Shown here: piece after piece, positions 1,292 through 40,254 of the stretch
How positions within the stretch are numbered: the stretch's first letter is position 1
Layout of the letters: every line of letters starts with the position of its first letter
Notes under the pieces: generated by a model
Databases searched by the model: none
Seen by the model: only the letters and a program-made list of their open reading frames with translations
What the model was told of the DNA's origin: nothing
From: Bolinopsis microptera
Lineage: Eukaryota > Ctenophora > Tentaculata > Lobata > Bolinopsidae
Reading direction: 5' to 3'
Assembly: GCF_026151205.1 (NCBI RefSeq)
Contig: NC_087082.1
Coordinates: 2,446,001-2,510,000 of the forward strand
DNA length: 64,000 bases
Position numbers and translations under genes: made by a program

Positions 1292-4200
1292 GACAATATG
1301 TGTACTACAGAGATTTCAGTAACAACGTCATTGAAGTTGATTTGATTAACCATAGCTGGGACCCCATCTTTACATTTGAACAATGGGTAGGTTGTTTTTT
1401 GATTGAGCGTTTTCTTAATACTAATATTCCCAATTACAGTTGTCCTCTATTCGTCCAAGTTCGTCATTTTTATGTGTGAATTTTCTTTCTGAATCTAGCA
1501 ATCCGGAGATTGTTAGACCAACACATCAGGATTCCAATATAATTGGTTCTAAATTTCGCAAAATGTTCTGTTTATTACTACCTCTGTACTCTAATCGATT
1601 CACATCCTCACAACTCCTTATTTTAGAACAAAGCTGGGTATGATGATTTCGACGTAACAGGACACAACAGACTTCTCATCTTAGCTAAGAATAACGGGGT
1701 GAGTGGACTTATATTCCAAACTAATTAGAATATTCATAGATATTATGTATTCTTGATGACGTGCAGTAAAGATTCGATCACCGGAGCAATCTAAGTATGT
1801 CACGACTCACGATTTGAAATTTCAATGTTCCGGAGTTTAATTGGTCCGTTATGTAAATTCAAGTTTTTTAATGATTTAAATATGACGAAATACCGGAAGT
1901 CAACAGGTTCAGACTTTTGGGGTTGTTTATCAGCTGTTATCAGTAATGACACAGTTCTGTAGTTCGGAGACGGTTAAGTAGGTATTTTCGGTAACGCGCG
2001 ATAAACGTTTTTGTAATAAAAGTAATCATTGTAAACATTATTAGCGCGCGTTTTGAACGAAATTTGAATTACAAATCTTCGATCCGCCATGTGAAAATGC
2101 ATGCGTACCATGTGCAAATTGGATGAATTAACGACCCACTTGTACTTTCAGACGAAATTTCTACACATGAACTTTGTTGATCTTTACAAGTACAAGATCG
2201 GAGATACCAACAACGAACCCCAGAAGTTTGAGAGAAATGTCGTCCATTGGTCGATTGCATCGCATTCCTCCGAGGACAGATTGGTAAGAACTCTTAACCA
2301 ACGTTAAAAGATTAAAAAACACATTTTTCTCTGTCAAATGCCAGAGTAGAATCTAGCTCTCGTGATCATCCCGATATATTTATGGTAAGACTCCTTTACC
2401 AAACATTAAAGTATTACATATATTTCTTATCTAATGCTCGTTTCAATGTTAACTTTGGACAGGTATTCGTTCAACAAGATCAGCCGAGTAACTGTTACAA
2501 TATCCGCTTACATGAGCTGGGTCCCGTTAGTAGAACTCTCAAGAATATCGGAGAGGTGTCCACCAAACCGTCCGTAATGCGAGGAGTCCTCTCATACCTC
2601 TATTCCGGTTATTAGCAGTCTTAATAGTTGTTGCACTGTTGCAGTGATTTAGCTTGCTGTTTAATTGTGCCATTTCATCCTATATATAAGTAATAGCAAA
2701 GAGTTTTGTGGATTAATAATTAACATGATCCGGGTATTTATTACAGAGGAGTTTTATGGGAAGTCGTCACAAGGATTCTGGGTGTCTCAAAATGGAGATT
2801 ACATAGTTTACATGATAACTGACACCAGCAACATGAGTCCTATCTCTGTGTAAGTGAGACTTCTGGTTTATTGATTAGCTGTAGATTAAAGTCAGAGGGA
2901 ACTTTTATACCTAATTAATATTGTCAGAAATTTTGCTACGGATAAAATGTTTCCAGAGCGAATGGATACCAATTTTATGTTTGATTAAAATTGAAATAAT
3001 TGATCCAAGAGTTAGCAAATAATCCCCTTTTCCACCACAGACAATCACCAGAGGATCCTGAGAAAGAGATCGTGTACAACTACCCTACGGTCCAGAACAA
3101 CAAGAACCCACTAGTCCGACTGCGAATGTACGACGTGTTGCGCGGTGAGATAATTACGGGAGCCGACGAAGCGCTCAACCCACTTGGGAAACAGGATCGG
3201 GAATACATCACGTCTGTTTCTTTCCCAAACGCGTAAGTTCCTTGGTGTCAATGTGAAAATCACGTCGGTTTTTTAACCATCAAAACTAGAGGAGATAAAT
3301 TCCACAATCCAAAAGGCAAAATTAACCCTCAAACAACTCTACAGGAAGAAGCTACTGGTAGAGTTCATGAACAGAGAACAAACCCGGGCCACCACAGAGG
3401 AGTGCACCTTGAACCTCAGCCCGACATGTGAGGATCTCCGTGTCTTGAGACGGAACAGTCACTTGGGGTGGCTGCCACGGTATCCGGCCGTTGCGTTCCC
3501 TGCCCAGGAGGATCTCAGTACACAGCAGTATTACGTGCTTAGGCCAAGGGTTGATAAACAGGTACGTTCTATAATCTATACTGGTTCATTTGTTTGTGTG
3601 CTGAGGTGAAAAACATTTTTTTCTGGTGTGTGATCTTTAAATTGTGATTTGAAACTTTCATTTTTACGCAATTACCGAGTTGTTCATTTCTAAAATTTCA
3701 TTTCAGTTCAATTTCACCCATCTCCACAAATACGAGACGACGAACGACCCAAACAGGAAGATAGCCATTACCACCGGGGAGTACGCTGTCACTGAACTGA
3801 TAGGAAACGACTACACTCGCAAACACGTGTAAGAACTTTATTTTACATCTGTTAGTTTTTTATTGACCATACTGACAAACTGACTTATTTAAGACGGAAA
3901 CACATTTAAACCGCTGAAAAACTGACAGAAATAATAAAATATTCATGTTGTTATAAACTATGACCGACAAACCGACGGACAGACCGACAAACATCCCAGG
4001 TACTACATTTCGACGGAGAGAGGACCTCACACACGACACCTGTACCGCATCACACCCTCCACCGGCTCCAAACATTGTTTGTCATGTGGAGTAGGCTGCT
4101 CCTGGGTCTCAGCCTCTTCCACCGGGATCTCACGTGACCTGCATCACCTCAAGATGACCTGTCTTGGACCAGGTCCCCGTAATCGTGTCTACCTCTTCAA

Positions 4201-5032
4201 AACTAGTCAGACTAAAAGTTTTATGATCATACGAACAAAGCCGGACAAAGAGTTGAAAACTCAGAACTCTGTAGTTGAGGAGATAAAAAGAGTCAAGTTG
4301 GGAGAAACGTGGTTTTACGTCAAGTTTTACAAACCGAGTAACTTCAACCCGAGAAAGAGATACCCGGTGGTGTTTGACGTGTACGGAGGACCCACTATGA
4401 ACAAAGTCAGCACCAAGTATAAAGTCGGATATGACCACTATTTTGCGGGACGGTATAACACTATAGTTGTCACCATGGATGTGAGAGGTACTCCCGGAAG
4501 GAGCGACAACTTCCAACGAGCTATTTATAAGAAATTCGGCACTGTCGAGGTAACTGACTCGATTGAAGTTATAAAGTGGGTCAGTCGGGAGCCGTACATA
4601 GATTCGTCTCGCATGGGTATTATGGGAGCTTCTTACGGTGGGTACCTGGTGTTGAAGATCATTGAGGCGGAGCCGAAACTGTTTGTGGCGGCGGTGTCGT
4701 CTGCAGCGGTGTCAAACTGGCGGTGGTACGACACGGCGTACACGGAGCGGTTCATGGGACTGTACGACAGGATGGTGTACGAACGTGCTTCAGTGGTACC
4801 GGACTTGAAGAAAATACCTAACAACGTGTTACTCCTGTTACACGGACTATCGGACACAAACGTGCTTATTAGACATCACTGGGCAGTGGTCAGGGAACTA
4901 AACTTGCGTCATAAAATATACAGTCATTACGTGAAACCAGGCCAGACTCACAGACTAAAACGACTGTTTCACACTTTACTTTGGTTTAGAAAGAGGCTTT
5001 GGAATCGAGGAAGACGGTGTAGATTCGGATAA
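1292..5032 (+). CDS. DPP4: DPP4-like membrane serine exopeptidase (S9B), ectodomain
   Basis: The gene encodes a dipeptidyl peptidase that would remove N-terminal dipeptides at the cell surface. Exons are 1292-1386, 1627-1698, 2152-2283, 2463-2607, 2747-2849, 3041-3232, 3345-3561, 3707-3828 and 4000-5032. All phases agree, giving 702 aa against about 766 for full DPP4, so only the N-terminal anchor is missing. The first eight exons form the beta-propeller. It includes a Glu-Glu pair (YSEEFYGKS) where DPP4 has its substrate-amine-binding EE motif. The last exon is the alpha/beta hydrolase with nucleophile GASYGG, acid HGLSDTNV and histidine QTHRL; the Tyr before KFYKPSNF fits the oxyanion Tyr. 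The whole hydrolase domain is one 1033-bp exon, while the downstream paralogous module has seven. FAP or another S9B member is possible; the enzyme class is secure. Confidence 0.92.
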
Positions 5033-5151
5033 ATTTACAAAACAATGTAACATGCAGTTATTTTTATAAACCGTACGATAACAAATTTACAAATCAATTA
5101 TTATTATTATAAAACAGGATCTTACCGACAAAAATGATTCTTAAAAATACC

Positions 5152-7108
5152 TTAATGCGGTAAACTGTACCCTTGAAAAAGATTTTCCCAACATCTGTTG
5201 CATGCAGCTATATCTTTAATTTCGTTCAATTCATACAAGTTGTCCATTTGCAAACTTCTACTATTTAAATCACTTCTTAAAACCGATAACAAGTTCATTC
5301 TAGGTCTCCCCAATCTTCCAATGAATAAATTATCTGATTCAATAGCAAATGAGAGAGCCGTTTGGGCTGGGGTGTTCTCCATACTCCTGAGAATGTGTCC
5401 AAACATTTTCCACCGCTGGTGTTCAATACGCTTGGATAACTTTTCAACTTTGCACCTTTCATACAATGCTTTGTTGCTTATCATACCTTTAGGCCATTTG
5501 ATGTTTAAAATGGACCTGAGGTGTCTACGATGGAGTGTGTCCATTTTCTCCATGGTTGCTTTCTTAGGACTCCAACTATTTGAGTTGTAAATCAATACAG
5601 ATACAACTTGAGCATCGTATAACCTCAGCTTTCTTTCAAGGGATATTTTCTTACCAGACAGCCTTACTTTTTCAAAGTTCTTAAAAGCAATCTCAGCTAG
5701 GATTCTTCTTCTTTGAATGTCCTTCTCAGTACACAGTAAGGAACCTAGTGACTTGTTACTTCTCCATGGTTCGTTATTAGCTAATGGCTGACCGTTTGTA
5801 TCTTTATCAGATTTTGTCGCTAGGTAGAAGGTACTGAATTCAGTTTTACTTTCATTTACTTGGAGGTTCCAGTCTTTGAGAATCCCCTTCACTGTAGGAA
5901 GGAAAATTCTCAGTTTCTCGATGTCCTCGTCAGCAAAGTCACAATCGTCTGAATATTCCCACTCAGTTGGAAAACCTAGTTCTGATACTGGTGGGTTTGG
6001 TCTCCCAGATACAGCTCTGAGGTGGTGTAAGGCTGCTGCAAGAATAAGTGTGAATAGCTTTCCAGATAAACTGTCACCTTGAAAGGCTCCGAGTAAACTT
6101 TCAAACTCTTCCGACAGTGAGGAGTTAACACGAACTCTAAGGAGAGTATTCGATAGAAGGTATTGAACTAAACGAATGTCGTCCTCCGAACAACCAGCAT
6201 CTTTCAAAACATTGATGATAGTGTCCCTTTTCACGGTATCAAAAGCTCTACTCATATCAATACCCATTTTGCTAAATGTCCATTTCTTCCTCATTACAAC
6301 AGATATGAGCATTCTCTGAGCCCACACAATGTCAGAGCAGCTCCTACCTCTCTTGTAAGCACTCTGCCATGGCATGGTGTAGTTGTCAATTCTACTCTCA
6401 ACCCGTTTTAAGGCAATTTGAGTGAGCATCTTCCTCGATCCGTTTAACAGTGTAAGTGGTCTAAGGCTTGTGAGGGGACCCTTAGGTTTACCGGGCTTCT
6501 GTAGAGGAGTCACAATACCTTGTCCTATCGAACTTATGTATTTGTTCCCACTAAATGACTCGTTAATTGCCTCAGCATACTTCTCAAAAGTGATTGGATG
6601 GGCGTACTTTATCAGCTCATTCTGGAGATTATCTGGACCACTGGCACGGTTTGATTTGAGTTTACTTGCAGCAAGTTTAACTTCAACTGGTGTGATGGGG
6701 TTATCAAGTGGTTTTGGATCGCAGGTAAAAGGTTGCAGGCCAGCTTCAACTCCTTCTGTTAGTTGTTTTTCGAAGAAAGATTTCGCTGTGTTTGCTTTCC
6801 CTAAATCAGTACCAATAGGGTTGTTGTTGATATCATTGACCACTATGTTACCCGACTTTCTTATTCCAGCTAAAGATCTTGAAGCTTCAAACATCTTTCT
6901 AGCATCGTCAGTGTTATTTATTTCTTCCGCTAGAGCGTCAGCCTTCATGTTATTTATTTGCACAAGTCTCTTAGAAATGCTATTTTGAATCTTTCTAACT
7001 TCTCTCCTATCTCCACTAACATCACTACCATTTGGGGCTGATTTGATCTTCAGAGTCTGATCACGCTTTTTTGCAACTAATGAAGCTACTGTTAGATCAC
7101 TGGAGAAA
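5152..7108 (-). pseudogene. LINE reverse transcriptase and C-terminal region
   Basis: The frame is open from just after the homopolymer at 7109-7117 to the stop at 5152-5154, about 650 codons; the first ATG is at 6963. Reverse transcriptase blocks are clear: the fingers (LKSNRASGPDNLQNELIKYA), LRPLTLLNGSRKML, motif A DMSRAFDTV, motif B GAFQGDSLSGKLFT and the catalytic box as YSDD instead of the usual YADD. The C-terminal part (HRRHLRSILNIKWP, then WKMFGHILRSM and GRPRM) is the tail common in metazoan LINE proteins. The reverse transcriptase itself is unbroken. Confidence 0.85.
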
Positions 7109-7804
7109 TTTTTTTTTAGAGGATTTCCCTTTCAGTGGTATAGTTTCTTCAGCACACGCACGTATGTCACTAAAAAGTTCATTCATTTTCTCATTTGGGT
7201 CATCTGGATAAGTTTTACCCGATAATCTTTCAGCAATCGCACTTTGATATTTCTGTCTGAGTTCTTTATCAATGTAGAGAGTTGAACAGTCAAACTGAGT
7301 GCTATCTGATTTTTTGGTTTTGTGAATGAGAACATGATTTTTCAGCGTTAATCGAGTTACAACAGGTTTGTGATCAGATCGTAACTCAGCGCCTCCGTAT
7401 GATCTGCTGTCCTTTATTAAAACCGTAGACCTCCTCCTGCAAAGCACATAGTCAAGTTGAGCGTATATAGGAGTATTTCTCTTAGTCCTGTGTTCACCAG
7501 TCCAAGTTAGTTTGTGCCTACTTGGATGATCAAACAAAGTATTGCATGCTGCTAGGTCTTCTTTAACCATAAATTCAAGCAAATGCTCCCCATTTTCATT
7601 TCTAGTCCCAATACCATGTCTACCTATCAAACCTTCCAGACCTAATTGTTCATCAACCCTAGTTCGTTTACCCAGCTTTGAGTTGAAATCTCCGCAGTGG
7701 AACATTTCCCATTTTGATGGAGTAGAGGATACATTGTGTAAACCCCTAACATTCCAAGAACAAACAGCGAAAACAAATAGCACAGCACACAGTGTTGATC
7801 CCAT
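7097..7804 (-). pseudogene. LINE AP-endonuclease remnant with internal deletion
   Basis: The fragment begins with the endonuclease start-like block FAVCSWNVRGLHN and jumps almost at once to the GDFNSKLGKRT block. The usual hundred or so residues between these two, which carry the catalytic Glu and the YAP region, are missing. Later blocks are present (LTWTGEHRTKRN, AQLDYVLCRRR and the terminal SDHKPVVTRL with its catalytic Asp-His). The frame ends at the homopolymer that separates it from the reverse transcriptase. The element was therefore inactivated at least once by deletion. Confidence 0.75.
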
Positions 7805-8238
7805 CTTGATTTTGGGCGTATCAAATCAATAGTTGAATAATACCTCATTTACATGTTTTTCAGTTATAATTAATATCTTGTTTGTATAGCAATTGGACCT
7901 TTTATTTCTGCCAAAAGAAAGATTACAGAAAACAGGATTATGACTAACTTCCGATTGGGAGATTTAATTGACTTATTGTTCACTATTAGTATATTTCGTT
8001 ATTTTGTCCTTTAAAGGTCCATTATCCATGCTAACAATCAAGTAAATGCCAATCCACTTGCAATCACTTTTAGACAACTTTGTTGTTCGACAGACCCCCA
8101 AAACTAAACCAAATACTTCTCCTCCTATTTCAAAGAAAAATCTAACTACTTTGAGCGATGACAGCCTGGTACAGTTCACCAAACTTGCTATTCTCAACAT
8201 ATCACACAGTGCACACTAAGTAACCACTATACCGACAG

Positions 8239-11200
8239 ATTGTACGTGAGAACGGAAGTGCTGAACCCTACCCACGAGCGAACCGCCTCCACCCGTAAGA
8301 GAATGTTGTGGATGTACAATGACTCTGCGAGTGGTGAGGCCCAGCACACTTGTATCTCTTGTTTGGAACCTGATGATAGGTGTGAGGTTGCCACTGCTAC
8401 CATCGACAGTTCTATGCACTGGTCAGTTGGGTTAATTAGTTTCTTGTTAGTTTCTTGTTAATCGGCTTAGTGGCTCAGTTGGTTAATCCGGGCCTGGTAT
8501 TGCTTGAGGTACCAGGTTCGATTCCCGACTCTGTCACTAGCCGTGGGGTGAGCGTCGTCGACGCTCAGCTAAGGATCCTGAGTGGTCTATGCAGCCCCCC
8601 GGTCCACTCAGCCAAATACTCGAGAAATCGGGTGTGAGGGTTAAATGAGGAGCTGCCCATTGCAGCAAAGTCTCGGGCGAAGAAAGTATGGTACACACTA
8701 CCTTAACCGTCACTGGCCTAATGTATAATTGAATCCTTCGGCTTCCTGTAATTGGCTGGTTACACACTTGTGTAACAATGTGGCTGTTGGAATGTCCGAA
8801 GTAAAATAAGAGTTGAGATAAAAAAAAACGTCATGGCGAATGTTTTTATTTTGTTATTTTTGTTAGATTTTTGCACATTATTAATGAAATTCATATTGTT
8901 GGAATCGGTCCCTTTCATAATAATACAAATAGGTATTGTAGTGACCATATAATCCAGATTTTAGCCGTACAAACTGATAATAACCCCCCATTAACAAAAT
9001 TCCACTTACGCTTCAGGTACCAGATATTCTGCCTAGGACCCGGTGTACCGTACGTAAGAGTAAAATCATTCGCCAACAACACATACAACATCTACGCAGA
9101 CGATCAGGCTAACATTCAATACCAGGATCCAAGTAAACAAGCCCAGCTTCTTCAGAAGAAGTCACCTTCTGTACAGTACACTCAGGTATTTATTGTTTGT
9201 CTGTGGGCTAAGTTTGAAGTTTGAATATTATGTCCTTTCGCGTCGGCCACACTTCCTCTCCCTCTCATTTTACCTTTTTAATCAATATTTAAATCTTCAT
9301 TAAGTATCCCTAGAATCCCTAGAGAGTACTGTGAAATTTAAAATGTCATGTTTATGGTGAGTTGCCGCAGGTTTTCTAACATTTCACTATTTTCAGGTAG
9401 AGCTGGATAAGAACACTAACATTTACGTGGCTGTAAAGAAGATATTCCCACTGTACTATGTTAAACACGCTAATATTCTTAAGTATCCGCTCCTTATTTG
9501 GGTAAGTTTTTTCCAGACCTACTTTCCTTATAAAGTTAAAATGGACATTTTTTCTGGTACACAATGTTACAATTTTTACAATCATAGCCCAAAAAGTACA
9601 GTCAATTTCATGGTAGTTTATCTATGATAGAACATCTTAATCATGCGAATTTACATGTTAATTAGTAATTAGTAATTAGTAATTAGTTAATCCCTGTGCC
9701 ATAGGTCGACCCTAACCCTGAAGGCAACATGGCCATGAAGAAGTACAAGTTAGATCTGGCACAGTGGTTGGCGACCTCCAAAGACTGTGTGGTCGTGTAT
9801 ATGGACGTGAAGGGTACCCCAGGTCGGGGCCTCGCATTCCATCACTGGCCTTACAAAGACTTTACCGTAAGTCTTTCCTAAGTCTCTTTTTAGTTTCCTA
9901 GTGAATGTTTTTGTTTAATTGCAAGACTATTTGATTTCACTTTTCCGAAAAAATATCTTGTACGAAATCTAAATTCATCATAAAGTCGTATTTCGATTGG
10001 GCGACATCTGTCCGACAGCGACATCTGTCCGAAAGCTGAATTAGGGATTTCGGACAGATGTCGCTGTCGGACAGGAGTCGTTTTTGGCGACATCTGTCCG
10101 AATTTCGGATCATATTGTAATTTAGGTTCACATTCGCATTTCACAAGCTCACAGGTAATCTCGTGACGTTCTAAAGCTGATGTGATCCCTTAAGATCTGA
10201 TCCATCGATACGTGATTGACTAGTTGAGAACAGGATCGTGCTAGCCGTACCCTAACAAGCTGTCGATCACATCACAGGACATGAGTACATGTAGGACAGC
10301 AGTATGGAGATCACTTATCGCAATCCACAATGGCAACCAATCTTCAGTTTATCCCTGGACGCAAACAAGGCTCGGAGAACCCTATCCTAAATGGCTTCAG
10401 ATACGTCTTCGACAAGCGAAGTAACGACACCTCCTACTGGAAATGTTCGGAATTCCGAAAGGGTTGCAGAGCCCGCATCCGTACCGTGGACAGACAACTG
10501 ATCACTCCTACTCCTGACCACACTCACCCTGTCCACCATGCTGAAACGACCGTCCACGTCAGCAAACAGAACTTGAAAAGAAAGGCTTCTGGTGGAGATC
10601 AACCGACGAAATACCTCGTATCTGAAGCAGTCGGTGGATTGGGTTACGAATCTAGAGCAAAGCTTGGCTGCCAGCTGTCATCCCTCAACAGAATGGTACA
10701 GAGAAGCAGAAAAGCAGCTAACAGACACCCTTCTAACCCGAGAGATCTGGAAACGCTCTCCATTCCTGCAAACTACATCCTCTCTACCGACAACGAACCA
10801 ATGATGCTCTGGGACTCTGGATGGGACGAACGGACTCGTCGATCTTTCCTTTGGGGGACTCTTAAGAACGCAGATCAGATCCTGGAAAAACGACGACCCT
10901 CTACCGCAACCTGTTCGAGGAGATAGACACCTGGGCTTCTGGGGGCTACCAACCACAATCCATCCTCATGGACTACGAGCTCGCCATTCACAACGCAGTT
11001 GCTTCCGTGTGGCCCTCCACTACCAGACGAGGATGTAACTTCCACTACAAGAAAGCCCTCCTGAAGCATGTTAAGCAGACCAACATCTGGGAGGAGTACC
11101 TGACTCCAAACTCTCCTGTTCGGGATTTCTTCGCGATGACTGGAGCTATTGCCTACGTTCCGGAGACTGACGTCCCTCGAATCTGGAGACACCTGAAGCC

Positions 11201-14200
11201 CCTCCTTCCTATAGACATGGCTGAGTTTGCTTCATACTACGAAAACACTTGGATCGGGACATCAACCACCAATCCTAACTTCGCTCCCCACATGTGGAAT
11301 CAACACGAAGCTGCACAGATGAGGATTCCATTCAATGCTGTCCTGCTCGAAGCCCACAATTTGGAAGTTCCTTGATTGCCTTAAAGCAGAACAAGCCCTT
11401 ACAGACGTGAAGAAAACCAAAAGAGACGGGCGGGAACTACCTGAGCCACGTGCACCCAAATGGATCCGTTATGATCGACAACTTCAGAGAATTGTAGATG
11501 ATTACGACAACTACAGCAACCCTATGGATTTCCTTAAAGCTATCGGAAATTTGACTACGCTTTAGATTTGATTCTGTGATATTGTATTATATTGAATTAA
11601 TTTATAACATTTAAATAACATTGTCCAATTTATCGACATCAAATTAAAATAAACTGTGGTAGTAAACTATGGCTCAGATCATATCTCAAATTGGACATGT
11701 TACGTATACAATTTAGCAAGTAACAGTTTAGATCATGTCTCTAATTGGAAATGTGTCGTATTGAAATCAGGTCACAATTTCGGACAGATGTCGTTTTTTT
11801 CTGGTACCCTGATTCGGACAGATGTCGCTTTCGGACAGATGTCGCTGTCGGACAGGAGTCGTGTTACCTCGTATTTCCAATGTTAATTTCATGTTGTAAT
11901 GGCCCCCTCTCTCTCCCCTCCCCCCCCCCCATCTCTACTCCTCTTTACCCCTCTCTACCCCTCTCCCACTCTTTGCTAAACCTGGGTACTTTACAGAGAC
12001 TCGTCAACAAGGCTGAACAAGCGATCAGAGATATCAAGATGTACTGGCACGTCAACGACAGTGAGTAGTCTTAACTTCTTTAAACCGGCTCTTGAGATTA
12101 GCACTCACTCCAGTACGCGCATTTCTGTACAGTTGACACTGTTAACTGCGGAGTCCTTTTCTGTAAATCCCGAAATGATCGTTAATCCATAACAACTTTA
12201 ATTGATACAACTGAATGATAAAAAACGATTCGAGAACCAAATATGGGAACTGGGATTTATCATTTAAGCTACAGGGTGGGCCAAAAGTCAGTACCCATAG
12301 GTTGGCCTTTATAGCTCAGTCACTGAGTGCCCAATTTAAATACTTCTTTCTGGTATGACTTAGTACCACCACTGGTTCGAGGAATTTGTCAACTCGAAAA
12401 ATATTCGCGCTCATTTTTTTCAAATGGAGGTTCATTTTCACATTTATTTGATAGTTTGGATAGTCGGATCAAGCTAAATGTTATTGAATTGTGTTTGGCC
12501 ATTCGAATTACGTTTGTCCTGAAAGAATTAGAACTGTAGCTTCTCAGATGACCGAGATATGAAGCATAACGAGTTTATTCATTACGTGTGATCAGGTGAT
12601 TGGATTACCTAATCACGTGATAAGGTGCCCCCGTTAACTACCCCGTTAAACATTATGGGAATTGTTAAGGGTGCCCAATTAAGGTGTCGTGTCACGGTGT
12701 CACATAATCACCCAGTCAATATTGTTAACGAGATACAGAAAATGCTTGATAACTTCGTCATTTCTAATCCGTTTTGCCTCATGTTTTCAGATCATATGCA
12801 ACATTTAATAATCTACCGTCTCTAAAAAATTAGGCGTTCAGCATGTTCAGAGAAAACAATATAGGTGTTTTAATATTGAATGGGCGTGGTCTAAAATATT
12901 CGAATTTTCAAATTTTGACGACAGAATCCTCGAACCAGTAAGTACAGTATGCCATCTGCAAAGCAACAGCTCTCAAATATAAAACACGGCGGAGCTATTA
13001 AGGCCAACGTATGGGTACTGACTTTTGGCCCACCCTGTATTTTATAGCTTCGTCTAAAATATCATACTTAAAAGATAAAAGCATCAGTTATATCATCAAC
13101 CACAAAGTAAAATAAAACAGTACAAGGCAATTCATCCCAATGTTGATTCACAAAATATTTGAATCATTAATCATTGATAAATTAATATGGTTTGCAGTTA
13201 ATAATCTGTATTTTAAAATTTGAAGTTTTAATGATATCTTACTTTAACATAATCTTTTAGTTTACCAAACAGACTACTACTATTTGTCTCATCAAGTATC
13301 GTATCATTAGAAAAATTAGGAAACATTATTACTGTGCACTTAACTCGTGCTCTTGACATGGCAAGATATAAAAGTTCTGGAATAGATGAAATTATACGCT
13401 TCTCAGTCAGTGTCTCGTTGTTATGATCAAAGAACGATTGCAGTGCTATAACTGCAGGCCATTCTTTTGAATATGTTGACATCACCCTCCTTGGTGGAAT
13501 ATTTTTTGAAAACAAAATATCTTCCAAAGTGGATTTAAGTAAATTGTCTGTGTCTGTAAGAGAGTGAAGAATACCCACATCATTACTATCTATCTTAATA
13601 TCATCAAATAATTCATTCAATTCTTTGACTATAATATCATTTATAAGTTTCTCATCAAACTTTGGCAGAACATGTACGGTAGTTGTAGGTCCATGTATAT
13701 AGTGCCCGGGGGCTTGTAAAATGGCGAAATCATTTCTAAATGTTGATACAATAATGTGTCCCTGCTCAATGATATGTTCTCGAATTACTGACAATGTTCT
13801 CGACAAATCAGAGGTGTTTCTCAAGTTCTTTGATAGACTTACAAGCTGTGTAGATGATAATGTGTCGGTAAAAAAATTGACTAGTCTATAGTTGGGTCTT
13901 AAAGTTACCTTCTCAACAGGAATCATAAGAAGAGGACTTTGTAGCATGTCACATGATATCCAAACGTGCCAAGAATGTGACAGTTCAAACAATGTTTCGG
14001 GTAATCCATAGTCGAAATTATTGTTTTCTAGTAGAGTGGAATGTGTATTGCAATCGAAATGTACCCGAAAATCGTCGTAAAAAACGTTAATTCCTTCAAA
14101 TAAACGTATAATATCACTTTGTGAGCTATTTCCAAGAATCTTGAGACCATAGCACTCCCTATCATAATTAGCACTCCTTATCATGATTATGACAACTTGA

Positions 14201-17197
14201 TTCTCTTCAAGATAGCCTCTTATTTTACGATATATTTCATCAGCAGGTTTTTCTGCCATTTCTGTAGCAAAAATAGAAAGGTTCTTAACATCTGCTTTGT
14301 CTAGCGGCTTATGTAGATGCTCTGAGGATGTCATCTCGTCATCAATGTCATATGTTTCAAGGAATAGCACAATTTTGTTGTCTTCGCTTGACAATGCTAG
14401 TTGTAGCATCTTAGCTAGTAGTACAACAGTTTTACCGGCTCCAGCGGGTCCATTGATCCACAAGAAATTCTCACTTGAATTTATCAAGTCGTACTGTTGT
14501 TTAGTCAAGTTGTCTATTCCTAAAAAGTCCTTGACGATCTTGGGTGATGGAATAACTAGAGGGTTATTGCTCCTGAAGGTAAATCTTCCTGAACGCAGTT
14601 GTTCGTCGATTTTTGCTATACACTTTCCCAAACTACATTTGGACTTATCACAAATGGTCTTGTCTGTGCACCATATAGCTAACAATAAGTTCCTAACATC
14701 TTCATGTTTGGTCCGAAACTCAGGATGCAAAGGCTCATTCAAGACAAAATCACTTATATTGTCTTTCCACCAATCACTAAAATATTTCAAATCTTCTTTG
14801 AAAATTATTGATGAAAGTTGATCTCTGCTTAGCTGAAAATCTTTCTTGGATGATTTTTCAAAGTTGGGGTAAACAGTAAACTGGAGAACTGTGAACCGCT
14901 TACAAAATCTTTTAACAAATTCTACCATCTTGTTCCTCTGGTCCAGTGATTTCTGGAAAGTTTTGGCAAATGCTTGCGACTGCAGGTGATCTTCGCTACA
15001 ACCAGGGTCTAATTGTCTCCCGATATGACCCATATTCTTCACTTCGATTATAACAACGTAGTTTGGTGCTATCACTACAAAATCGCATTCGCCTTCTCTG
15101 TTAGTTGCTCTCTTCTTGCACTCGGTACATCTTCGTTTAACATGGGTTAAATCTCCCAGATAATATTGGAAATGAGTATATTCAAAACTGTGGAGAACAA
15201 TCAAATCTTCACCACTCAGACTCTCTAAAGCTCTGTATACAATTACCTCAGCCTCATAGTTGAGTTGCTGGTTTCTGTCGTTTTCAAAACTGCATCCGGG
15301 CTGATCTTCAGGGTAAATGTCTATATACTTTTGTTGAGGAGCTCTGGGTAACATGATGGGATGTTTGTCTCCAGTTGAACAGTAGGTTTTAAATATCTCA
15401 TTCCCATTCCGCAGGTATTTCTCGTACTGTGTTTCATTGGTCATTGCTCTCTTCGCCATCTTGGGGGCGGCGCCAAATCGTAGTTTTAATGTGGGACAAT
15501 TTTGAAAAACTTAACTTAGGTACTAGCAAAACAGGGGGAAGCCTTTTCGGCGGGGGGTGCCAACAGGCAACGTTACGCCACTGCTTTGAAATGCACTGTA
15601 AATTGATAAACACAACACTAACAGCAAGTAAGTAATACAATAGAATAGTGGATTGTGCACGATCCGCGTGTCAAAATTCAAACTCAAAGTTAAACAAAAG
15701 TAGAAATGGCGGACAATTTTAATACGCGTGTTCGATGTTCGATCGATCACATGCTTGATTTGTTCCAGACTAATCTTGCGCATGTGACATTAAGTACGAT
15801 CCTATTATTATGACGATATAAATTAAAATGAGGCGACATTGATTTAGACGTGTACGCTGTCTTTTTCAAAATTTTAAAAATTTATAACTTTTAAAAATGA
15901 CTCATGAAATTCAACCGTTACGTATAGGGATCGTAGTCTGGAATTTTGTCATTGGGACCACTATTTAAAACAAATCTTTTCTTGTTTTAATGTTAGCAGA
16001 TACAGGCTACAGCCTCGTATTTTTACACTTTTTTACACTACACTTCTTTTTCTGTGTATGTTGTAGTGAAAATTGTAGTAAAAAAGTACACTAAATTACA
16101 TTTTTCTTAAACTCTTCTTTTTTCTATTATTTTCCCATCAGTTTTCACATTGTACATTTCCAAAGGCAAAACAGGGGTAAACGATACTGTTTGTCAGACA
16201 AAAATGTCACTGAATAACACTTTTTACAAGTGTAGTGAACTCGATATATGTGGAACTGGTTTGGGGTTTGGGCTATAGGAGAACCCGACCGGAAACTGCC
16301 GGATATTAATCTCATTTCCGGTTAAACGGATCTTAACTCTAAGAAACCGAATTGAGGGTCAAACATTTTATGTAGAATTAAAGGTGCTAAGAGATAAAGA
16401 GTAACCCGTACAAAGAAAAGAAAGACAACCTTGACCAAAGGTTAAAATTAATAAACTCATTAAGATTTTGTCTCTCACTTTTATTTCTTTCACAACTTTT
16501 ATATCTTTCACAACTCTACCAACAATTCTAATAATGTCCCTCAAACACGGCTACAGTAGTAAACTAACGCACAAATTGCCCAGATAAGGTTGCGATAATG
16601 GGAGAGAAGATGGGAGGTTGGTTGGCTCTGAAGATGGTTGAGAGACAGCCTGACTGGTTCAAGGCTTCTATCGCTGTTAACCCTATCCTTAACTTTGAGC
16701 ATTACATTCAAGTAAGCATTTGTATTGTGAAATGTTAACCGGGTGATTGTTATCATTTTTCCAAAGGCCTGGAATCTAGCACATTCTCCAACACAACAGT
16801 TTTATGGTTCATGACCATGTTGATTAAAAAATGCTACTCATGATTAATTATCGGAACCTTCCAGGCGTTCTCTGAGCGGTATCTGGACAAGTACACCGCC
16901 GGACAAACTAGCTCAATCTACCCCTCCGCCGCCATGGACTTAACCAAGTTGAGCACAGAAATCAGGAAAAAGACGGCTATATACTACGATCCGCGAAACT
17001 ACGAGGTACCCAGTACCTACCAAACCATGAAACCCTTCCTGGAGGGTGATAAAACCACTGACTTAGAGAACTTTAACTTGTTTAACATTATGGATGTGGA
17101 GGAGAGTTTAGAAGATAAAGTGCTCGGTGACGTGTTCCTGGATATTGGGCTGAATGTCACTGCATTTTTGGAAGAGAGCCCGCATAATATTTTCTAA
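8239..17197 (+). CDS. Catalytically dead DPP-type alpha/beta hydrolase module
   Basis: Seven exons (8239-8421, 9017-9185, 9397-9501, 9705-9866, 11997-12060, 16584-16711, 16865-17197) join in phase without any stop, giving 380 aa. The product follows DPP4 from the last propeller blade (LYVRTE; HTCISC) through FCLGPGVPYV and VYMDVKGTPGRG to the stop. The nucleophile motif GxSxGG reads GEKMGG, so Ser is Lys. The family His region reads NIMDVEESLED with no His, and the Asp region is also altered. It is thus a pseudopeptidase, as DPP6 and DPP10 are among vertebrates. No propeller exons precede it; the gap holds the LINE. Its first exon needs a phase-2 upstream exon, which the propeller exon ending at 3828 supplies. 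It may be an alternative 3' end of that gene, or a separate gene that lost its 5' part. Confidence 0.82.
8463..8730 (+). mobile_element. tRNA-derived SINE, copy 1
   Basis: A tRNA-like head carries an A box (TGGCTCAGTTGG) and a B box (GGTTCGATTCC). It is followed by a body with AAGGATCC, CCGGTCCACTCAGCC and GGGTTAAATGAGGAG. The same body blocks follow a different tRNA-like head at 21572, so this is a SINE family and not an isolated tRNA pseudogene. It lies in the first intron of the dead DPP module. Confidence 0.75.
9660..9690 (+). repeat. Short tandem repeat, ATTAGTA unit
   Basis: Four to five copies of a 7-base AATTAGT unit lie just upstream of the acceptor of the exon starting at 9705. It is a simple microsatellite in the intron. 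Confidence 0.8.
9995..11868 (+). mobile_element. MULE transposon with 9-bp target duplication
   Basis: The element is bounded by a perfect 9-bp direct repeat, TCGTATTTC, at 9986-9994 and 11869-11877. Its inverted ends consist of stacked copies of CGACATCTGTCCGA. They cover about 10001-10110 on the left and 11778-11863 on the right, with the order and spacing partly rearranged between ends. A 9-bp duplication and a FLYWCH/MULE transposase place it in the Mutator-like superfamily. It is inserted in the intron between the exons ending at 9866 and starting at 11997 and does not disturb the splice sites. Confidence 0.88.
10330..11565 (+). pseudogene. FLYWCH-MULE transposase, broken
   Basis: The first frame (10330-10926) starts with a FLYWCH zinc finger (FRYVFDKRSNDTSYWKC, CRARIRT and a paired His near HTHPVHH) and runs into the pre-catalytic region (LWDSGWDERTRRSFLWGTL). 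A second frame (10968-11375, open upstream) has the MULE core: acidic motif ILMDYELAIHNAV, then the Cys-His motif GCNFHYKKAL. A third frame (about 11340-11565) has the C-terminus. Two frameshifts separate these frames. The first is at a deletion that has also removed the stretch where the first catalytic Asp (usually in an ADGTF-like motif) should be. The copy cannot encode an active transposase. Confidence 0.82.
12272..13037. mobile_element. Non-autonomous Tc1/mariner-like MITE, copy 1
   Basis: The 766-bp element is flanked by TA at 12270-12271 and 13038-13039. Its ends are inverted repeats of about 45 bp starting CAGGGTGGGCCAAAAGTCAG, with only a few mismatches. A TA duplication with such ends fits the IS630-Tc1-mariner group. 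There is no transposase. The middle contains a 66-codon open frame (12625-12825) that is also open in copy 2. It lies in the large intron 12061-16583. Confidence 0.85.
13228..15459 (-). CDS. NERD-domain nuclease fused to SF1 (UvrD-like) helicase
   Basis: A single intronless frame of 743 aa lies antisense in an intron of the dead DPP module. Residues about 60-160 resemble a NERD nuclease-like domain of the PD-(D/E)XK fold: NYEAEVIVYRALESL, then GECDFVVIAP and VVIIEVKN, giving the Asp and the Glu-x-Lys. Between them is a Cys pair (RCTECKKR). A helicase core follows: Walker A INGPAGAGKTVVLL, a Walker B-like INVFYDDF, motif IV-like TLRPNYRLV, motif V-like STYSKEWPAV and motif VI LLYLAMSRARVK. Walker B has Asp-Asp where UvrD has Asp-Glu. 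The family acts on nucleic acids; the role here is unknown. The lack of introns among intron-rich genes suggests retrocopying, lateral transfer or a mobile-element cargo. I saw no terminal repeats around it. The frame has no damage, so it is probably expressed. Confidence 0.83.
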   Translation of the reverse strand: MAKRAMTNETQYEKYLRNGNEIFKTYCSTGDKHPIMLPRAPQQKYIDIYPEDQPGCSFENDRNQQLNYEAEVIVYRALESLSGEDLIVLHSFEYTHFQYYLGDLTHVKRRCTECKKRATNREGECDFVVIAPNYVVIIEVKNMGHIGRQLDPGCSEDHLQSQAFAKTFQKSLDQRNKMVEFVKRFCKRFTVLQFTVYPNFEKSSKKDFQLSRDQLSSIIFKEDLKYFSDWWKDNISDFVLNEPLHPEFRTKHEDVRNLLLAIWCTDKTICDKSKCSLGKCIAKIDEQLRSGRFTFRSNNPLVIPSPKIVKDFLGIDNLTKQQYDLINSSENFLWINGPAGAGKTVVLLAKMLQLALSSEDNKIVLFLETYDIDDEMTSSEHLHKPLDKADVKNLSIFATEMAEKPADEIYRKIRGYLEENQVVIIMIRSANYDRECYGLKILGNSSQSDIIRLFEGINVFYDDFRVHFDCNTHSTLLENNNFDYGLPETLFELSHSWHVWISCDMLQSPLLMIPVEKVTLRPNYRLVNFFTDTLSSTQLVSLSKNLRNTSDLSRTLSVIREHIIEQGHIIVSTFRNDFAILQAPGHYIHGPTTTVHVLPKFDEKLINDIIVKELNELFDDIKIDSNDVGILHSLTDTDNLLKSTLEDILFSKNIPPRRVMSTYSKEWPAVIALQSFFDHNNETLTEKRIISSIPELLYLAMSRARVKCTVIMFPNFSNDTILDETNSSSLFGKLKDYVKVRYH
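15926..16005 (+). repeat. 80-bp dispersed repeat, copy 1
   Basis: This 80-bp block recurs as its reverse complement at 31104-31183 with no difference that I could find. It starts AGGGATCGTAGTCTGG and ends GTTAGCAGATACAG. The near-perfect match over 15 kb suggests a recent or active repeat, of which only a fragment is visible. Confidence 0.75.
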
Positions 17198-18160: not shown

Positions 18161-18525
18161 GATACTCGTAAAATATTTGTTCCAAACTCGACGCGCGTCC
18201 TGGTAGGATATATAATAAACCTACAAAACTACTGGTGTGACGATCACTCTATCTGTTTAATTATATTTATATTTGTATCCGGACAACTCATAATGATTCC
18301 AAAATCCCTGTTGAACTTATGTTATAGGCCCTATTAAAAGTAAAATAACTCGTCCAGATCCAGTCTAGTCTTAACAGTTAACACTTAACCTTAAATTGGC
18401 TTTAACTGTTCACTTGTTGAACTAGCTCTGATTGTCGTTAACGGGTGATACTCGTAAAATATCTGTTCCATAGTCGACGAGTCCAACTCGGCGCGCGTCC
18501 TGGTAGGTTGTAAACCTACAATGAT
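18161..18525. repeat. Dispersed GC-rich repeat, two copies
   Basis: Two related blocks at 18161-18235 and 18440-18525 share GGGTGATACTCGTAAAATAT, then CGCGCGTCCTGGTAGG and nearby AACCTACA. A third, longer copy lies at 53692-53880. The CG-rich core stands out against the AT-rich background. I cannot assign it to a class. Confidence 0.65.

Positions 18526-21962: not shown

Positions 21963-40254
<18,292 letters not shown>

Follow-up and report, generated by a model that had tools for sequence, protein, structure and literature searches.

A DPP4-like locus of the ctenophore Bolinopsis microptera with one propeller and two hydrolase ends, one of them dead, that may be joined by alternative splicing

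RESULTS

The window analyzed in this study is the whole 64-kb stretch of Bolinopsis microptera DNA at C11:2446001-2510000, and positions below are counted from its first base. We rebuilt the exons, phases, and splice dinucleotides of the whole locus from the sequence and carried out our searches in a genome of 264.65 Mb in 232 contigs. The plus strand carries the exons of a DPP-type propeller, a single-exon hydrolase module (M1), and, beyond a retrotransposon, a second hydrolase module in several exons (M2).

The propeller occupies nine plus-strand exons between 1060 and 3828 (1060-1143, 1292-1386, 1627-1698, 2152-2283, 2463-2607, 2747-2849, 3041-3232, 3345-3561, and 3707-3828), which by themselves score 91.5 bits against the Pfam DPPIV_N profile and reach position 293 of 354. 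An earlier, sequence-only reading of this DNA did not list the exon at 1060-1143, which encodes an N-terminal part of the ectodomain (peptide VRLWHKLTWQDIRNLQVEPRNIKWGQH), is bounded by the acceptor tttcag and the donor gtaagt, and runs in phase 1 into the exon at 1292. The exon at 2463-2607 ends in a phase-1 donor ahead of two Glu codons, at a place where a DPP4-like paralogue (L008) also has a phase-1 intron (by eye), and the exon at 2747-2849 begins with the double-Glu motif. Joining 2607 to 2747 restores a YLYSEEF stretch, which, aligned by eye, we take to correspond to the WVYEEE motif of DPP4. In DPP4, the double Glu of the propeller binds the N-terminus of the substrate. The propeller alone gave no match in the PDB at a threshold of 0.001. 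The window does not reach the start of the gene. About 740 bases ahead of its first base begins an exon (L001:9259-9382, equivalent to C11:2445259-2445382) that, judged by eye, encodes a hydrophobic, transmembrane-like stretch, and this candidate transmembrane exon is putatively linked to the exon at 1060.

M1 (4000-5032, plus strand) is a single terminal exon with a stop codon that encodes the final propeller blade and an active-looking hydrolase. It had been described from the sequence as an intact DPP4-like hydrolase exon, and this description was borne out, given that the catalytic Ser (GASYGG), Asp (HGLSDTNV), and His (QTHRL) are all there and that the best PDB matches of M1 are DPP4 (9e-44). 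With the residue numbers of DPP4 (Ser630, Tyr631, Tyr547, Tyr666, Asp708, and His740), alignment confirmed the Ser, Tyr547, Tyr666, and the Asp, and the His of QTHRL was read off the sequence. Placed in one chain, the propeller and M1 score 133.0 bits against DPPIV_N (to 351 of 354) and 132.5 bits against Peptidase_S9, and together they would constitute an active-looking DPP4-type S9B peptidase. The locus shares with DPP4 and FAP (S9B) a single chain that combines a double-Glu propeller with a Ser-Asp-His hydrolase, downstream of a transmembrane-like exon; it departs from them in having another hydrolase end farther along the gene region.

M2 consists of seven plus-strand exons between 8239 and 17197, with 381 codons, no stops, and 6 of 6 introns that are GT/AG and in frame, as the sequence-only reading had it. 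The first exon (8239-8421) has a phase-2 acceptor and encodes the final propeller blade with its CISC...RC cysteines, and the second (9017-9185) encodes the end of the blade (FCLGPG) and the linker into the hydrolase, which starts in exon 3 (9397-9501). Exon 4 (9705-9866) contains WVDPNP, in which an Asp stands for the oxyanion Tyr; exon 5 (11997-12060) continues the hydrolase; and exon 6 (16584-16711) contains the nucleophile elbow GEKMGG, with Lys for Ser, and is the sole M2 exon recovered in the Peptidase_S9 scan of the animal's own genome (E 9.1e-4). Exon 7 (16865-17197) encodes AFSERYL followed by a strongly diverged C-terminus and the stop, and the catalytic Asp and His are not recognizable in it. 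The best PDB match of M2 is DPP6 (2.7e-20, residues 20-281), which runs across all six junctions, and M2, like M1, is above the Pfam Peptidase_S9 cutoff. These two matches indicate that the M2 exon model is not due to chance, as the DPP4 and Peptidase_S9 matches do for M1.

The earlier claim that the nucleophile of the second module is Lys was confirmed by alignment, and the oxyanion Tyr is lost as well. At the positions of Ser630, Tyr631, Tyr547, and Tyr666, M2 has Lys, Met, Asp, and Phe, and DPP6 has Asp, Tyr, Asp, and Phe in the alignment. The regions around Asp708 and His740 are not confidently alignable in M2, and neither residue is evident, the earlier reading having counted the His as gone; the last ~90 residues have no recognizable DPP similarity, and the Peptidase_S9 match stops at position 129 of 213 of the profile. 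Judged by these residues, M2 is a catalytically dead hydrolase end.

Although M2 appears dead as an enzyme, it has properties of a coding and probably structured ectodomain. L008, rat DPP4, and human DPP6 agree with one another at 53 alignment columns, of which M2 keeps 30 and M1 keeps 33, and in the other columns M2 matches rat DPP4 at 39 of 245 and M1 at 60 of 239, with the compared columns ending near AFSERYL because the DPP6 fragment stops there. Four cysteines of blade 8 (columns 38, 41, 48, and 66) occur in M2, L008, DPP4, and DPP6, and M1 has three in place and the fourth shifted. M2 has a GC3 of 0.588, which matches the propeller value of 0.580; M1 has 0.558. GC content is 0.377 in the four short M2 introns together and 0.340 in the propeller introns. 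The propeller followed by M2 scores 102.2 bits against DPPIV_N and reaches 354 of 354, so that M2 completes the propeller profile. The intact frame, the GC3, and the retention of structural residues and cysteines argue that M2 diverged as coding sequence. Neutral evolution was simulated from M2 with assumed substitution and indel settings, and the frame escaped both stops and frameshifts with a probability of 0.343 at 0.5% divergence, 0.14 at 1%, 0.123 at 1.5%, and 0.037 at 2%, and no run out of 300 remained intact at 3% or more. It is thus supported that M2 bears the marks of a selected coding ectodomain, with a very recent loss of function possible. The retained blade cysteines further suggest that M2 would be made as an extracellular blade, which would require the anchor exons upstream.

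The interval between M1 and M2 is largely taken up by a young non-LTR retrotransposon (RVT_1; 5099-7821, minus strand, with copies matching from 5097 to 7820) of about 2.7 kb, for which all 55 other genome matches listed are 95-100% identical. The element is flanked by a 9-bp target-site duplication, CAAATCAAT, at 5090-5098 and 7822-7830 on the plus strand, a sequence that occurs at only three plus-strand places in the window. Another candidate duplication, AAAACAGGAT, was rejected in favor of CAAATCAAT because copy alignments place it inside the element. Given the 9-bp duplication, the flanks were originally contiguous and the first exon of M2 lay 474 bp after the M1 stop, which supports the view that the original spacer would have been too short to hold another propeller. 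This copy of the retrotransposon is without ~400 bases near the 5' end that are found in longer copies (jump at query 2701-2709).

The introns of M2 contain other sequences. A tRNA-like, SINE-like stretch lies at about 8465-8620 in intron 1 (by eye only), and an element bearing a MULE transposase, with broken frames and mosaic similarity of 84-100% to many genome copies, lies at about 10000-11870 in intron 4. Within intron 5, an intact, intronless frame of 760 codons runs antisense (13228-15510, minus strand) with matches to a NERD nuclease-related domain and a P-loop NTPase/ResIII-like domain; it may be a nested gene or a captured mobile gene. We considered transposon ages as a clock for M2 and rejected them, given that the retrotransposon is too young (95-100%) and that the MULE copy is pieced together from segments of 84-100% similarity. 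Neither transposon dates M2, and only the bound from the simulation therefore remains.

The claim that M2 has no propeller of its own held at the locus. Genome searches revealed no second copy of this propeller, but they would overlook one that has diverged strongly. The propeller (without the exon at 1060) matched only its own 8 exons in the genome at E values up to 10, and M2 matched itself, M1, and, at weak scores, DPP and S9 relatives, such that propeller, M1, and M2 each occur in close form at one genome place. A Pfam DPPIV_N scan of the genome found only places on C2 and at C11:17.98/18.01 Mb and missed the present gene, the exons of which, scanned one by one with the same profile, gave nothing at E 0.001; a strongly diverged propeller elsewhere is possible because the scan misses even this gene. 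Near M2, no propeller was found in any of three regions: the spacer, 8422-16864, and 12.8 kb downstream of the last M2 exon. Among the 12 best matches listed, the top one had E 2.4, and any match in the spacer would be weaker than E 5.8.

The donor at 3828 leaves two bases over, and the acceptors at 4000 and 8239 each supply one; the earlier proposal that this donor fits both acceptors was upheld by phase (2) and codon position. The arrangement would suit alternative terminal exons of one gene, with one upstream donor and two phase-compatible acceptors. A phase-2 intron before the last blade is also found in the paralogue L008 (donor by eye), at the same codon position as the acceptors of M1 and M2. 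The phase match is weak evidence for sharing, since a single ancestral phase-2 intron gave rise to both acceptors, and it should not be counted as independent proof, given that a decayed tandem gene would match too. The acceptor at 8239 scored 3.55 and that at 4000 scored 8.43; the 20 acceptors that we scored had a mean of 6.29 (s.d. 2.92, minimum 1.35), which places 8239 within the range, and at least 5 of the 23 AGs in 7830-8300 outscore it (4.69-8.11). The M2 frame has a stop upstream at 8159, and its first ATG, at 8303, is in frame and inside the blade, so M2 does not obviously possess its own start, signal, or anchor. Polyadenylation signals gave no useful information: only two on the plus strand (AATAAA or ATTAAA) occur in the M1-M2 interval, at 5324 and 7416, and both are inside the retrotransposon; the first one after M2 is 1 kb on, at 18214.

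The relationship between the two modules is distant. M1 and M2 are 25.7% identical, M2 and DPP6 26.5%, and M1 and L008 31.0%. The exons of L008 were assigned by eye with GT/AG sites, and its hydrolase part has at least six introns (six further ones were modeled), whereas M1 has none and M2 has six. No intron of M2 shares both column and phase with an intron of L008, the nearest pair being about two codons apart and in another phase, which suggests that the modules are not simple recent copies. The six introns of M2 (8422-16864) unmatched in L008 could be intron gains in M2. In a tree of seven hydrolases, M2 grouped with M1 in the best tree (60 of 100 bootstraps), and an AU test rejected none of four alternative trees (M2 with DPP6, p 0.068). 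NCBIfam models added no information. M2 may have originated by duplication of the M1 module or from an older DPP, and both origins are compatible with the tree. L008 (C11:18003501-18013000) itself forms an inverted DPP4-like pair with L007 (C11:17979501-17989000), 95% identical over 7.6 kb, which may be a recent palindromic duplication or an uncollapsed allele.

DISCUSSION

The best explanation of this locus, to which we give a probability of roughly one half, would be a single gene for a membrane DPP, whose two alternative 3' halves share one propeller through alternative splicing. The product would be a type II membrane protein, with the transmembrane-like exon upstream of the window followed by the nine-exon, DPP4-type propeller. 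Joining 3828 to 4000 is presumed to be the default and would give the full DPP4-like enzyme. An occasional or regulated junction of 3828 with 8239 would skip the M1 terminal exon and give the same tail, anchor, and propeller with the dead hydrolase end. DPP6 and DPP10 are inactive DPP proteins that serve as partners of Kv4 channels, and the dead isoform may act as a binding or scaffolding ectodomain in a similar way, or it may pair or compete with the active isoform. Given that it would share tail, anchor, and propeller, it would also share location and partners. Relatives of DPP4 work as dimers. Slightly more tentatively, we propose that in an early-branching animal the terminal acceptor chosen decides between a dipeptidyl peptidase on the cell surface and a dead partner of the DPP6/DPP10 kind, and that a separation of enzyme from pseudoenzyme, which in vertebrates came about by gene duplication, is here held in one locus. 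The suggestion that active and decoy isoforms arise from one locus came from the sequence-only reading. In its favor are the lone propeller and two hydrolase ends, an active-looking and a dead one, whose splice boundaries are interchangeable; on the other side, the phase match is explained by descent and the 3828-8239 junction is a prediction from the sequence.

We considered that a second, tandem DPP gene could instead have lost its propeller by deletion, in which case M2 would be its orphaned 3' half, now unexpressed or transcribed as noise, and thus a very young pseudogene or relic. Descent would supply the phase match for free, the acceptor at 8239 is weak, and M1 and M2, at ~26-28% identity and with different intron layouts, look as old separate genes do. 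All that the intact frame disfavors is relaxed evolution for longer than ~2% neutral divergence. Even so, M2 is without a stop or frameshift, its splice dinucleotides are all there, and its GC3 is of the coding type; moreover, the target-site duplication indicates that the element in the spacer was not the cause of a propeller loss, and the spacer showed no remnant of a propeller. We regard this explanation as fairly unlikely but still a real rival.

Another real rival, though a more doubtful one, is the possibility that M2 is a separate downstream gene that receives a spliced leader by trans-splicing and starts at the ATG at 8303, encoding a dead hydrolase without a propeller. An independent M2 transcript is possible given that spliced-leader RNA-like genes occur in the genome. 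Three of them (L011, L012, and L013) form a 67-kb cluster at C13:12.83-12.89 Mb, each with the ctenophore leader end AATTAATTTGAG directly before GT, in the form GTAA(A)GATT followed by a hairpin-like stretch (by eye). The leader pattern has 8 matches in the genome, the three places on C13 among them, compared with 4 for a reversed control. The C13 leader resembles the Hormiphora leader printed in PMC8527503, a paper that puts leaders on at least 56% of Hormiphora Iso-Seq reads. The first ATG of exon 1 is in frame, and stronger acceptors lie upstream. The main counterargument is that four disulfide-type cysteines of an extracellular blade make little sense without a signal or anchor. In addition, a start at 8303 would cost M2 its conserved first 22 residues, and the exon boundary coincides precisely with the propeller-hydrolase intron. 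An operon could account for a gene only 474 bp downstream, but as of 2021 ctenophores had no reported operons (PMC7986045).

An assembly or haplotype artifact, in which a true second propeller is missing from the assembly, is improbable: M1 and M2 are indeed separated by a near-identical repeat (95-100% among the matches listed), the kind of place where misjoins usually arise, and the 95% inverted duplicate of a DPP4-like gene is possibly an uncollapsed allele, but the 9-bp target-site duplication fits one simple insertion, the window has no Ns, and close forms of propeller, M1, and M2 are each confined to a single genome place.

Alternative 3' halves on a shared propeller can be compared with several known systems. 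M2 resembles DPP6 in that DPP6 is its best PDB match and in the replacement of Tyr547 by Asp and of Tyr666 by Phe, and it differs in that it is without a gene or propeller of its own and that a grouping with DPP6 is unsupported, though not rejected (AU p 0.068). Its nucleophile is replaced by Lys, compared with Asp in DPP6 and Gly in DPP10 (PMC4873792). According to the same paper, DPP10 has orthologues in Bilateria, DPP6 is confined to vertebrates, and fly DPP10 is a peptidase and Kv4 subunit in one protein. The fly gene likewise combines enzyme and nonenzyme roles, there in a single protein and here in two proposed alternative hydrolase ends. Tandem duplicated exons that are used in a mutually exclusive manner (PMC9741552, PMC9013439) also provide homologous alternative segments after a shared part; unlike those, the segment here is a whole multiexon domain, ~26% identical, with one copy catalytically dead. 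Among the papers listed by our literature search, none was seen to report one propeller with active and dead hydrolase ends. If the proposed splicing is correct, an enzyme and its pseudoenzyme counterpart would come from one gene, they would be coregulated, and mixed dimers would be likely. The locus would also represent an independent, ctenophore case in which a dead DPP arose, for comparison with DPP6 and DPP10.

Two further observations concern other genes. A protein tyrosine kinase exon lies farther along the window at 37454-37930 (plus strand). A glutamate-receptor ligand-core domain has 32 matches in the genome, including L009. Many of these lie in one long, uninterrupted reading frame each, the longest of 989 codons, so that the receptor genes have few introns, or none, in this part.
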